Of a stretch of DNA of 55,042 nucleotides, positions 3,021 through 43,970 are shown piece by piece. This stretch comes from Acidobacteria bacterium RIFCSPLOWO2_12_FULL_66_21 (GTDB taxonomy: Bacteria; Acidobacteriota; Vicinamibacteria; Vicinamibacterales; 2-12-FULL-66-21). A program made the position numbers and the translations under genes. Each line of letters begins with the position of its first letter. Positions within the stretch are counted from its first letter, which is position 1. The stretch is from the NCBI GenBank assembly GCA_001767455.1, contig MELC01000052.1:1-55042 (forward strand), written 5' to 3'. Under the pieces are notes generated by a model, which saw only the letters and a list, made by a program, of their open reading frames with translations, was not told where the DNA came from and made no database searches.

Positions 3021-3094
3021 AGGAGGCAGGAGGCAGGAGGCAGGAGGCACATGATTCAGGAGGCAGGAGGCAGGAGGCAGGAGGCAGGAGGCAA
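3021..3094. repeat. Heptamer array GGCAGGA, doubles as Shine-Dalgarno
   Basis: Two blocks of near-perfect GGCAGGA tandem units are separated by CACATGATTCA. The last unit supplies GGAGG about eight bases before the GTG start of the amidohydrolase gene, so the repeat appears to serve as its ribosome-binding site. Confidence 0.9.
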
Positions 3095-5825: not shown

Positions 5826-5925
5826 TAAACAGTTTCCAGTTCCCAGCTTCCAGTTCCCAGCTTCCAGTTTCCAGCGGGAGGCGCCGAAACTGGCGGCTGG
5901 CAACCGGAAGCTGGAAACTGGGAAC
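5826..5925. repeat. Heptamer array with inverted arms between convergent genes
   Basis: Left arm units (CCAGTTT, CCAGCTT, CCCAGTT) give way to complementary units (GAAACTGG, GGAAGCTGG, AAACTGGGAACT) after a short GC-rich loop. The region separates two convergent stop codons, so the structure could act as a two-way transcription barrier. This is inferred; there are no T-runs. Confidence 0.85.
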
Positions 5926-22482: not shown

Positions 22483-24144
22483 ATGCCCACCTGTGCGGAG
22501 ATACTGTCGAGGACCCTGCGGGAGGCCGGAATTACGCGGATGTTCGGGCTTCCCGGCGGTGAAATCCTCGACTTCATGGAAGCGGCGCGCCGGGCGGGCA
22601 TCGAATTCCTGCTGACGCGCCACGAAGCGACCGCCTCGCTGATGGCCGACGTCACCGGGCAAATCAGCAGGCGCCCCGGCGTCTGCGTGTCGACGCTCGG
22701 TCCCGGGGCGGTCAACATGACGCTTGGGGTCGCCAACGCGTTCCTCGATCGCTCTCCCCTGATCGCGATCACGGCCAGCCACGCGCTGGCCGCCTCGCCG
22801 CTGGCGACGCACCAGAATCTCGACCTGAACGCGGTGTATCGGCCGTTCACGAAGCTTGCGATGACGCTGGACGCCATCAACACCGCCTCGAAGGTGCGGC
22901 GCGCAATTGCGGCGAGCCTGGCCCCTCGAATGGGCCCCGTGCACATCGCGCTGCCCTCCGACGTTGCGCGGAGCCAAGAGTCCGAAGAGGCTCCGCCTGT
23001 CAACTCCCAACTCCCAACTCCCAACTCCCAACTTCCAACTCCCAACTCCCAACTCCCAACTTCCAACTCCCAAACCCCAAGCCCCAAGCCCCAAAACGGA
23101 TTGGAGCACGTCGCGCGGGCGCTTCAGCAGTCGAGGCGACCCGTGGCCGTGCTCGGACTGGATCTCGAGCACCGCGCGCACGCCGCGGCCGTGCGGCACT
23201 TTGTCGAGAGCCTGCGGCTCCCGGTGTTCGTCACGCCGAAGGCGAAAGGCATCTTCCCGGAAGATCACGCGCTCTTTTACGGCGTCTGCGCCGGCGTGTC
23301 GGCCGACACGGTCGTGCTGGATCTTTTCCGGCGCTCGGACCTGCTCGTCGGGATTGGATTCGAACCGGTCGAGTCGGATAAGCTGTGGCACCACGAGCTG
23401 CCGCTCGTGTCTGTCGGACCCCTGTCGATTGCTTCGGGCGCGTATCGTCCGCGGGCCGAAGCGGTCGGCGATGTGGTCGACATGCTCGGACGGCTCGAAC
23501 GCGACGCGCCGGGCCCATTCGATTGGACCGATGGCGACCGCGCCACCTTCCGCGGGCAGCTCGATCGGGCGCTGCGGCCCCAGTCGCGACCGCGCGGCCT
23601 CTCCGCGTACGAGCTCACGCGGCGGCTTCGCGAACTGTTCCCCCGCGACGCGATCTTCACCACCGACGTCGGATCGGTGAAGATGGTGACGACGCAGGCG
23701 TGGACGACCTACGAGCCGATGACGTTCTTCGAATCGAACGGACTGTCAGCGATGAGCTATAGCCTTCCGGCCGCCATGGCCGCCCGCCTGCAGTTCCCCG
23801 GCCGCGAGATCCTGTGCACGATAGGCGACGGCGGGTTCGGCATGACGCTCGCCGATCTCGAAACGTGCGTCCGCGAGGACCTGCGCTTCGTCATCATTGT
23901 GTTCAACGACAGCAGCCTCAGCCTGATCGATGCGGCGCAGCAGCGGCGCGGCTACCCGACGCTCGGCGTGCGGTACGGCGCGGTGGATTTCGCGACCGTC
24001 GCGAGAGGATTCGGCGCGTGGGGAGCGCGGGTGCGGACGCTCGAGGAACTGGACGACGCGCTGGCTCAGGCCCGCAAGGCCGACCGCGTCGCGGTCGTTG
24101 ATGTGCTCATCGACCCGGCGGAGTACGTGACACAGCGGTGTTAG
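22483..24144 (+). CDS. Thiamine-diphosphate enzyme, acetolactate synthase-like
   Basis: The 553-residue protein has the three TPP-enzyme domains. The N-terminal domain carries [11 protein letters not shown] and the catalytic Glu in [11 protein letters not shown] (E48), then LGPGAVNMT. The central domain starts after a linker at about 207. The C-terminal domain has [15 protein letters not shown] and, 27 residues after GDG, VFND: the TPP-magnesium motif. It could be an acetolactate-synthase-like or decarboxylase enzyme; the specific reaction is unclear. No small regulatory subunit gene is adjacent. Residues 174-206 are encoded by a heptamer array and read as a Pro/Ser/Gln-rich spacer in the normal interdomain loop. 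Start ATG with GGGAG upstream. Confidence 0.88.
23001..23095 (+). repeat. In-frame heptamer array (CAACTCC) inside the TPP enzyme gene
   Basis: About thirteen seven-base units, mostly CAACTCC or CAACTTC, ending in CAAGCCC variants. Three units make seven codons, so the array encodes the repeating peptide NSQLPTP. It falls at the boundary of the first and second domains and keeps the frame open. Confidence 0.95.
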
Positions 24145-24172
24145 GTGCTGGGTGCTGGGTGCGCGCGAGACC
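24144..24172. repeat. Short heptamer array (GGTGCTG)
   Basis: GGTGCTG, GGTGCTG and GGTGCGC units begin at the stop codon of the TPP enzyme and end before the response-regulator gene. Confidence 0.65.
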
Positions 24173-30810: not shown

Positions 30811-31282
30811 CCTCACGGTCACATGCCGGATCAATGGCCAGGCGGCGACCCTGCGCGGCCATTCCATGGCGCGGCTGCTCGACGTCCTGCGCCGCGACGC
30901 GCACCTGACAGGCACGAAGGAAGGCTGCGGAGAGGGGGAATGCGGCGCGTGTTCGGTTCTGCTCGACGGCCGGCTCGTGAACAGTTGCCTCGTGCCCCTC
31001 GTCCATGCGAACGGCGCCGAAATCGTCACGATAGAGGGCGTCGCGTCGGCCGATCGACTGCACGCGGTTCAGGAGGCGTTCGTCGCGTGCGGCGGCGCGC
31101 AGTGCGGCATCTGCACGCCCGGGATGGTGCTTGCCGCGGTGAGCCTTCTCGCGCGCACGCCGCGTCCAACCGAGGACGAGACTCGCGCGGCGCTGGCCGG
31201 CAATCTCTGCCGCTGCACCGGCTACATGCGCATCTTCGCCGCCGTCGTCGAGGCGTGCGGCAGGACCGCCGAGCCGTCATGA
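30803..31282 (+). CDS. Molybdenum hydroxylase 2Fe-2S subunit
   Basis: The 159-residue protein has both clusters of the family: GCGEGECGACSVLLDG with the plant-ferredoxin-type cysteines and NSC, then CGGAQCGICTPGM and GNLCRCTGY for the helical [2Fe-2S] domain. It passes electrons from the Mo subunit to FAD. The start is a TTG at 30803 after GGAGG, overlapping the large-subunit stop by eight bases; the next gene overlaps by ATGA, so all three are translationally coupled. Confidence 0.95.
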   Translation: MADLTVTCRINGQAATLRGHSMARLLDVLRRDAHLTGTKEGCGEGECGACSVLLDGRLVNSCLVPLVHANGAEIVTIEGVASADRLHAVQEAFVACGGAQCGICTPGMVLAAVSLLARTPRPTEDETRAALAGNLCRCTGYMRIFAAVVEACGRTAEPS

Positions 31283-32172
31283 GGGCGTTCCTGCCAGCCT
31301 ACGACCTCGAGGCGCCAGAGACGCTCGACGCGGCCCTGCGGCTGCTCTCCGGCGGAGATGGCGGGTGGAAACCATTCGCCGGAGGAACCGATCTCATGGT
31401 GCTGCTCGAGTCGGGCAAGCTCGCGCCGGGCCGTTACGTGAGCCTCTGGGACATCGAGGAATTGCGGGGCATCACCGTTTCAGAAGACGGCGTCGCGATC
31501 GGTGCGCTGACGACGTACTCCGACGTGCTGGCGCATCCGGTGCTGCGCGCGGATTTCCCGCTGGTCGTTCGCGCCGCCGCCGAGACGGGCGGCGTGGCGA
31601 CGCAAAACCGGGGGACGCTCGGCGGCAATATCGCCAATGCTTCGCCCGCGGCGGACACGCCCCCGGCGCTCCTTGTGTACGACGCCGAGCTCGATATCGT
31701 CTCGGTCCGCGGGACGCGGCGGGTGCCGTACGACGGATTTCACAAGGGCTACAAGGTCATGGACCTCGCGCCCGACGAGATCATCCGGCGCATCCGGCTG
31801 CCGTTCGCACGCCGCGGCTGGCGGCAGGCGTACCGCAAGGTCGGCACGCGCAGGGCGCAGGCCATTTCAAAAGTCTGCTTCGCGGCCGCCGCCGACGTGA
31901 GGGACGGGACACTTCACGACGCCAGGATCGCCTTTGGCAGCGTCGCGCCGACGGTGGTGCGGTGTCATGTCACGGAACATGCGCTGCGCGGACGCCGGAT
32001 CGATCCGGGCATCGCGGCCGTCGCCCGGCAGGCGCTCACGGCGGATATCGCGCCGATAGACGACGTGCGGTCGACGGCGCGGTATCGGATGCGGGTCGCA
32101 GGAAACCTGCTGGTCGATTTCTTGCTGAACGATGACAACTCCCAACGCCCAACTCCCAATTCCCAATCTTGA
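31279..32172 (+). CDS. Molybdenum hydroxylase FAD-binding subunit
   Basis: The 297-residue protein has the CO-dehydrogenase flavoprotein fold: [12 protein letters not shown] in the FAD pyrophosphate loop, [22 protein letters not shown] (in two pieces) at the second FAD site, and the C-terminal CO_deh_flav_C region [15 protein letters not shown]. It accepts electrons and passes them to NAD+ or a quinone pool. Its last ten residues ([11 protein letters not shown]-like) are encoded by the CAACTCC heptamer array, and the stop codon lies in the loop between the array arms. Confidence 0.93.
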
Positions 32173-32217
32173 GTCTGGGAGTTGGGCGTGGGGAGTTGGG
32201 GGTTGGGCGTTGAGGGA
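32138..32217. repeat. Heptamer hairpin at the end of the FAD-subunit gene
   Basis: CAACTCC, CAACGCC, CAACTCC and CAATTCC units are followed, after a TCTTGAGTC loop, by complementary units (GGGAGTT, GGGCGTG, GGGAGTT). CAACGCCCAACTCCCA pairs with TGGGAGTTGGGCGTGG at 15 of 16 positions. The left arm is translated as the C-terminus of the FAD subunit. Confidence 0.92.
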
Positions 32218-40583: not shown

Positions 40584-40634
40584 CTCCCAACTCCCAATTC
40601 CCCACTTGGGAGTCGGGTGTTGGCAGTCGGGAGT
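40584..40634. repeat. Heptamer hairpin (CAACTCC/GGGAGTC)
   Basis: CCCAACTCCCAATTCCCC is followed by CTTGGGAGTCGGGTGTTGG and CAGTCGGGAGTC, a short inverted array between ctaB and the DUF420 gene. Apart from it and a heptamer trace at 40453-40465, the 190-base gap 40446-40638 shows nothing. Confidence 0.8.
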
Positions 40635-43777: not shown

Positions 43778-43970
43778 GATTGCGAATTGCGGATTGCTGA
43801 TTGCATTGTTGATTGCGGATTGCTGATTGCGAGAATCGCGGATTGCTGATTGTGGATTGGTCACGATGGGCTGGCGCTTGGGCTCGATTCCCAATCACTA
43901 ATCCGCAATAGGCGATCGGCAATCACCAATCCTCAGTACGGTCAGCAATCCGCATTGAGCGATCCGCAAT
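43778..43970. repeat. Long heptamer array, two opposed halves (GATTGCN / AATCNGC)
   Basis: Left half: GATTGCG, GATTGCT, GATTGCG and relatives. Right half after about 43890: CAATCAC, TAATCCG, CAATAGG, CGATCGG, CAATCAC in the complementary sense. At about 190 bases this is the longest array in the window. I see no gene in it. Confidence 0.9.

Follow-up and report, generated by a model that had tools for sequence, protein, structure and literature searches.

A dispersed heptamer repeat has probably become an interdomain linker of an acetolactate-synthase-like enzyme in an acidobacterium

In Acidobacteria bacterium RIFCSPLOWO2_12_FULL_66_21, a gene for a ThDP-dependent enzyme contains, in frame, a tandem array with a 7-nt unit. 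This raises the question of where such an array came from, and how a coding gene could accommodate a repeat whose unit is not a multiple of three. The stretch of DNA analyzed here (the window, 55,042 nt) is contig C52 of a 6.48-Mb genome in 91 contigs.

An array between two domains of an open gene

The original prediction placed 13 CAACTCC-type units between the first and second domains of the enzyme. We found the units there, and the Pfam borders agree, with the array's residues falling between TPP_enzyme_N and TPP_enzyme_M. The gene is laid out as follows.

22483-24144, plus strand: gene of the ThDP-dependent, acetolactate-synthase-like enzyme that holds the array; 553 aa, open throughout
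22489-22824, plus strand: TPP_enzyme_N, aa 3-114; Pfam 109.4 bits (cut-off 26.8)
23001-23095, plus strand: heptamer array of 10 CAACTYC and 3 CAARCCC units plus a partial unit, encoding residues 173-204
23104-23493, plus strand: TPP_enzyme_M, aa 208-337, starting just past the array; Pfam 62.5 bits (cut-off 30.4)
23665-24105, plus strand: TPP_enzyme_C, aa 395-541; Pfam 124.7 bits (cut-off 21.9)

Read directly from the sequence, the units run as four CAACTCC, one CAACTTC, three CAACTCC, one CAACTTC, one CAACTCC, one CAAACCC, and two CAAGCCC; these 13 whole units occupy 23001-23091, and a partial CAAA runs on to 23095. Tandem Repeats Finder reports a period of 7 with 10.4 copies and 93% matches at 23001-23073, and also a period of 21 at 23001-23094. 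An 18-nt probe, with up to two mismatches allowed, had 17 matches in the window, 10 of them within the array, and none in 100 dinucleotide-preserving shuffles. The translation into NSQLPTP repeats had been predicted correctly, and the final three units encode SPKPQ. The two CAACTTC variants, one synonymous and one changing Pro to Ser, are too few for a selection test on the peptide.

The array belongs to a family dispersed through the genome

The pattern CCCARNNCCCARNNCCCAR matched 113 times in the organism's own genome, versus 4 times for a reversed control. Our census covers the 100 of these 113 matches that were listed and, from the other 13, those within the C79 stretch. Around the listed matches we took 38 stretches in addition to the window, and called genes in them with a simple codon-score caller rather than a published tool. 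This gave 50 mapped tracts, 40 of which lie outside called genes and 10 of which overlap a gene (one by 2 nt only). The commonest units are CCCAACT (95), CCCAACG (37), CCCAGCT (21), and CCCAATT (19). Where neighboring tracts lie less than 110 nt apart, seven of the eight pairs are on opposite strands, with the C-rich arm first in all seven. Such an arrangement occurs in the window at a second tract of the family.

32141-32168, plus strand: second tract of the heptamer family, in the last codons of the gene at 31279-32172 (molybdopterin dehydrogenase FAD-binding subunit), 4 nt from its end
32177-32212, minus strand: G-rich inverted heptamer arm just past that gene's stop, opposite to 32141-32168

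Pairs of a C arm and a G arm within the window are thus seen at 32141-32212 and also at 40587-40623. Right after the stop of the ThDP gene, at 24144-24162, there are G-rich GGGTGCT-type heptamers of opposite richness to the array inside the gene, and other period-7 arrays of the window lie at 3021-3093 (AGGAGGC), 5830-5875 (CAGTTTC), and 43778-43859 (GATTGCG). The longest tract that we mapped, L165 (C28:12176-12413, 238 nt), alternates TCCAGGT and TCCAGCT, forming a higher-order 14-nt repeat. For the array in the ThDP gene, ViennaRNA with its G-quadruplex option predicts a quadruplex on the G strand (-8.36 kcal/mol, RNA parameters) and none on the C strand.

Counting the own genome, 34 of 60 genomes had pattern matches, with counts ranging from 0 to 241. 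Since the reversed control exceeded the pattern in 12 of the 60 (for example 35 to 0 in G042 and 39 to 1 in G051), a relative with matches need not carry the heptamer family of the own genome. The excess of control matches in G007, G014, G032, G042, G051, and others hints at other heptamer families.

A family of this kind could have supplied the array by copying. Alternatively, the linker may have contained a chance proto-repeat that expanded locally by slippage. Its units are very alike, clusters of identical neighbors resemble local expansion, and slippage can surely extend such an array. However, CCCAACT, followed by CCCAACG, CCCAGCT, and CCCAATT, recurs across the 39 mapped stretches and in unrelated genes (YbeY, a hydrolase, and a fucosidase), whereas independent growth would be expected to yield unrelated units; a different unit, CCCAAGG, is common in two relatives. 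We therefore infer copying from other tracts, and regard purely local growth as a serious but rather unlikely alternative.

The host enzyme and its array-made linker

The gene product can be placed in the ThDP superfamily with some precision as to fold, and less as to function. Among solved structures, a sequence search gave its best hit at 251 bits to 13bb_A, named acetolactate synthase. Foldseek, run on the predicted model, ranked 9zgl_D best (TM 0.85/0.87), followed by Bacillus subtilis AlsS (4rji), and the protein shows the acetolactate synthase fold. It resembles AlsS (PDB 4rji) and the reconstructed ancestor 9zgl in its three-domain fold and in the N-M-C order of the domains, and differs from them in that identity in the Foldseek alignments is 25-28% and that its linker between the N and M domains is array-made. 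None of the 25 NCBIfam models listed, of 52 matched, reached its curated cut-off, the best of these being PRK08322.1 (356.7 of 509 bits); AlsS TIGR02418 scored 265.2 of 551.1 bits. Judged by these comparisons, the enzyme is a member of the ThDP superfamily that is acetolactate-synthase-like only, and we do not assign it as acetolactate synthase proper.

An AlphaFold2 model, whose input alignment comprised 18 sequences (the window protein plus 17 named loci, including 11 orthologues), had a mean pLDDT of 86.0 and a pTM of 0.88. Low confidence was concentrated at the array, and the last few residues of the chain also had low pLDDT.

22999-23079, plus strand: residues 173-199, the sole stretch of at least three residues with pLDDT below 50 in the AlphaFold2 model

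The array-made linker is thus predicted to be disordered. With the linker set aside, identity to 22 orthologue loci is 58.9-68.7%, and both flanks keep to a single frame. Against the three closest orthologues, differences at first, second, and third codon positions were 0.14-0.15, 0.08-0.13, and 0.50-0.52 before the array and 0.26-0.28, 0.19-0.21, and 0.49-0.55 after it. This third-position excess indicates purifying selection on both flanks, a signal that covers the entire branch rather than just the time after the array arrived.

These data bear on whether the gene may be decaying or its product not made, in which case the array would be mere damage. The failure to reach the curated cut-offs of the 25 NCBIfam models agrees with such decay. 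Against it stand 553 open codons, three domains far over their Pfam cut-offs, a frame kept through the array, and the excess of third-position changes on both flanks, although that excess spans the whole branch. We consider decay improbable. The repeat was originally described as having entered the gene harmlessly: the keeping of frame and flanks was confirmed, while harmlessness itself is a reading of those conserved features. The linker is probably a tolerated spacer without a function of its own, presumably neutral and joined to an enzyme that would still be active.

How the reading frame meets a 7-nt unit

A perfect CAACTCC array, its unit length being coprime to 3, encodes a single peptide per strand in every frame: an identical peptide from all three forward frames and GVGSWEL from all three reverse frames, with no stops. 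Such openness is common, as 8264 of the 16384 possible heptamers are open in all six frames. It does not make the unit frame-neutral. In silico gain or loss of one or two units led to a stop at residue 295-404, while removal of three units restored the full frame. The original claim about the frame was therefore correct in that the array is in frame and the gene open, although copy number must change by three or the gene breaks.

That behavior is what a contingency switch would require, in which gain and loss of units turn the enzyme off and on by phase variation. However, variant units interrupt the array (the longest perfect run is four), which would be expected to damp slippage, a metabolic enzyme is an unusual target for a switch, and four-fifths of the mapped tracts lie outside called genes. 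A switch is therefore very improbable.

Orthologues have shorter linkers of other sequence

We searched for orthologues in 60 genomes (own included) and in 162 genomes of the order, at a threshold of E <= 1e-120; an orthologue was present in 16 of the 162, own included. A scan of named genomes kept 80 loci, the first 13 of which (L039-L051) are 54-64% identical. We aligned 22 loci (L010-L018 and L039-L051), and as six were identical to others this left 16 distinct sequences, two of them partial (L049 and L050). Six further loci (L149-L154) added two more distinct orthologues, whose linkers we read at the protein level only. G002 is a relative of the same family, and its orthologue shows no differences from that of a named Acidobacteria gp6 MAG.

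The alignment with orthologues that had been proposed as a check gave a uniform result: the linker measures 28-30 aa in all 18 distinct orthologues versus 46 aa in the array-bearing protein, and the NSQLPTP-type repeat is absent from all 18. A 7-nt period was detected in the own linker alone when we tested 17 linkers (own plus 16 orthologues). Since two of the same 17 were positive at period 6 and two at period 12, this lone positive would mean little without the visible array. In the gene of one orthologue, L047, a two-unit chance match to the heptamer pattern lies near residue 71, outside the linker. As far as orthologues and period can tell, the proposal of a lineage-specific linker derived from a DNA repeat has held up.

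An opposing view is that the Pro/Gln/Ser linker is an old feature of the family, kept for its function, in which case distant relatives could carry the same linker from unrelated codons. Several orthologue linkers are Pro-rich, which is all that speaks for it. No distant orthologue among those examined has an NSQLPTP-type peptide from other codons, and with the repeat in none of the 18 distinct orthologues and the 7-nt period confined to the own linker, we rejected this view as extremely unlikely. An assembly artefact is just as hard to credit: repeats are prone to mis-assembly and this is a 91-contig draft, yet the array lies inside a 55-kb contig with its frame intact, is short enough for ordinary reads to span, and has counterparts in three other genes on other contigs.

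The lengths do not describe a clean insertion, as had been envisaged. The array encodes approximately 31 aa, whereas the linker has gained 17 aa (51 nt relative to a 29-aa linker), and so approximately 14 aa of earlier linker were apparently lost. The segment concerned is the family's least conserved: in the alignment of 16 orthologues, the 20-column window with the lowest conservation lies in the linker (residues 168-204), with a mean majority-residue fraction of 0.41. The array thus seems to have replaced approximately 14 aa of this segment. Since none of the relatives searched belongs to the same genus and no orthologue exceeds about 69% identity, the word "replaced" is based on lengths rather than on a base-by-base alignment of the old linker.

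The second interdomain linker of this enzyme family, near residue 370, also has lineage-specific inserts, of approximately 20 aa in L153 and L043 and approximately 60 aa in L154. The L154 insert has no 7-nt period (p 0.65; best period 16). By appearance, the inserts may be other dispersed repeats.

A probable route into the gene

Taken together, we consider it quite likely that a tract of the genome-wide family of C-rich/G-rich heptamers entered the linker of the ThDP enzyme, took over approximately 14 residues, added 17, and was tolerated. A tract of the CCCAACT type (GGGAGTT on the other strand) would have been copied into the gene, or have grown there, in the part of the protein under least constraint, the linker that joins the N-terminal ThDP domain to the central one, displacing approximately 14 residues for a net gain of 17. 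Such an array could survive because it is stop-free, because the net change in length (51 nt) is divisible by three, and because its C-rich strand gives a hydrophilic, proline-rich, disordered peptide that would spare the folded domains. One in three random changes in length keeps the frame, and retention of the frame is therefore possible by luck.

Tracts inside other genes

Four tracts lie well inside genes in the own genome, in the ThDP enzyme and in the following three.

YbeY: L183, residues 62-73
S15/CocE-like hydrolase: L166, residues about 405-438
Alpha-L-fucosidase: L177, residues 406-415

These three sit at loops that vary among relatives. For the hydrolase, we aligned 17 of 29 other loci, some of them paralogues, and none has an NSQ-type peptide, although longer loops of other sequence occur in L224 and L231. 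For the fucosidase, we aligned 10 of 13 loci, and every one is 7 aa shorter at the site of the tract. Five further tracts are found at or near C-termini, in PurD, the FAD subunit of the window's molybdopterin dehydrogenase, a RecA-like protein, a glycosyltransferase, and an M28 peptidase, where the tract lies 71 nt from the gene end.

Among relatives, we counted a tract as interior when it was more than 60 nt from either end of the gene, a definition under which the M28 peptidase tract (L163) would be a fifth interior tract in the own genome. The count was 1 of 33 in G027 (DNA polymerase III alpha; 100 of 120 matches listed, all listed loci taken), 1 of 26 in G005 (a PMT-like protein; 66 of 170, all listed contigs taken), and 0 of 22 in G030 (100 of 241 listed, counted on contigs other than C7, C30, C39, C43, C55, C82, C87, C123, and C128). 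Interior tracts are thus of limited generality among the relatives examined.

The YbeY loop offers a comparison across many lineages. YbeY was found in 58 of the 60 genomes, own included (E <= 1e-10); we fetched the gene from 50 of the 58 and could read 48 loops. Bounded by TDVLSF and GDIVI, this hypervariable loop spans 2-65 aa (median 15), and at 13 aa that of the own gene (L183:2674-3180) is of ordinary length. Of the 34 loops of at least 25 nt, eight had a 7-nt period (p < 0.01), those of the own genome and of G001, G008, G013, G016, G018, G029, and G034 (genes L183 and L196, L204, L270, L273, L275, L276, and L284). At other periods, one of the 34 was positive at period 5 and none at 6 or at 8-12. 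The flanking coding stretches gave period 7 in 2 of 96, and up to 4 at another period. Compared by eye, the heptamers in these loops differ between genomes; that of G013 is a dispersed repeat rather than a simple array, with 45 more matching pieces in the G013 genome. It is very probable that repeats rewrote the YbeY loop on several occasions.

Orientation within genes and along a chromosome

Tracts overlapping a called gene by at least 10 nt were C-rich in the sense direction in eight of nine cases in the own genome (binomial p 0.039), and in 10 of 11 with G005 and G027 added (p 0.012), G030 contributing none. We rejected this orientation as a strict rule for tracts inside genes, as L187 and the YbeY loop of G018 are G-rich in sense.

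The G027 genome consists of one contig and has a DnaA-like motif near base 459; we took its terminus to be near 3.1 Mb from a weak change in GC skew. On this contig, C1, the C-rich strand was on the presumed leading strand at 25 of 29 pure-CCCAAGG loci, grouped by eye from the full listing (p 1.0e-4). With a looser pattern, for which 100 of 120 matches were listed, the count was 28 of 33 loci (p 6.6e-5).

Discussion

The closest known systems are the G-rich heptamers described by Rehm et al. 2015 (PMC4692102), GGGNATC in Xanthomonas and GGGGA(C/T)T in Nostoc, which are reported there as scattered, mostly intergenic, and often arranged in convergent arms. A genic minority is also given, with at least partial overlap for 11% in Xcc and 7% in Xac, and 68% of those in Nostoc are intergenic (PMC4692102). 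Our family shares with this class, as presented there, a 7-nt unit with a GGG tract (here GGGAGTT on the minus strand, with four CCC junctions in a row across units 1-5), a genome-wide and mostly intergenic distribution, and convergent pairs (here with the C arm first). It departs from the consensus GGGNATC or GGGGAYT, so that GGGAGTT would be a sister type by structure in a host of another phylum. Xanthomonas heptamers are reported to have no preference for the leading or lagging strand (Rehm et al. 2015, PMC4692102), unlike the presumed leading-strand bias of the CCCAAGG arrays in G027. The main text of PMC4692102 does not contain the words "amino acid," and the encoded peptide is seemingly not treated there.

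Repeats within protein genes are also known from Rickettsia palindromic elements, stem-loops of 105-146 bp (PMC2229807, citing Ogata et al. 2000). According to the same source, a guanylate kinase bearing such an element is still active, with a changed affinity for its substrate (PMC2229807). Like the heptamer array, these elements are described as dispersed repeats lying in frame within conserved genes. They differ in being palindromic with terminal inverted repeats, whereas the array at 23001-23095 is a single C-rich arm, and 32141 is where the family is next mapped in the window. With one arm only, we rejected a palindromic element inside the ThDP gene. A further parallel is provided by the amino-acid tandem repeats of Borgs, whose units within ORFs are stated to be all divisible by three and virtually all unique per genome (Schoelmerich et al. 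2023, PMC9879509). There too, tandem DNA repeats in ORFs give rise to disordered stretches, whereas the heptamer array has a 7-nt unit and belongs to one family dispersed genome-wide (compare PMC9879509). Our literature search, with most subscription journals outside it, found no paper that treats heptamer arrays as protein linkers or describes repeats of this kind in the order.

The ThDP enzyme offers a checkable case of tandem DNA of a non-coding type turned into protein, in which the donor family, the target linker, array-free orthologues, and the peptide can all be identified. The unit itself is instructive, as it gives one heptapeptide in every frame and yet breaks the gene unless copies change by three. 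That similar tracts recur in further genes, and for YbeY across lineages, raises the interest of the case, and the four interior tracts together with the varied YbeY heptamers of relatives make repeat-fed protein evolution testable through close strains.

More broadly, and as a tentative suggestion that may well prove too wide, dispersed heptamer arrays and other small repeats could repeatedly supply replacement loops to conserved enzymes of this order, housekeeping ones included. Their orientation would be tied to replication (the C-rich strand lying on the leading strand) and the protein's tolerance would act as a filter, such that different lineages would have had one loop, that of YbeY, rewritten by different heptamers. 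Loops and linkers in such genomes should be interpreted with caution, as they may be recent repeat DNA.
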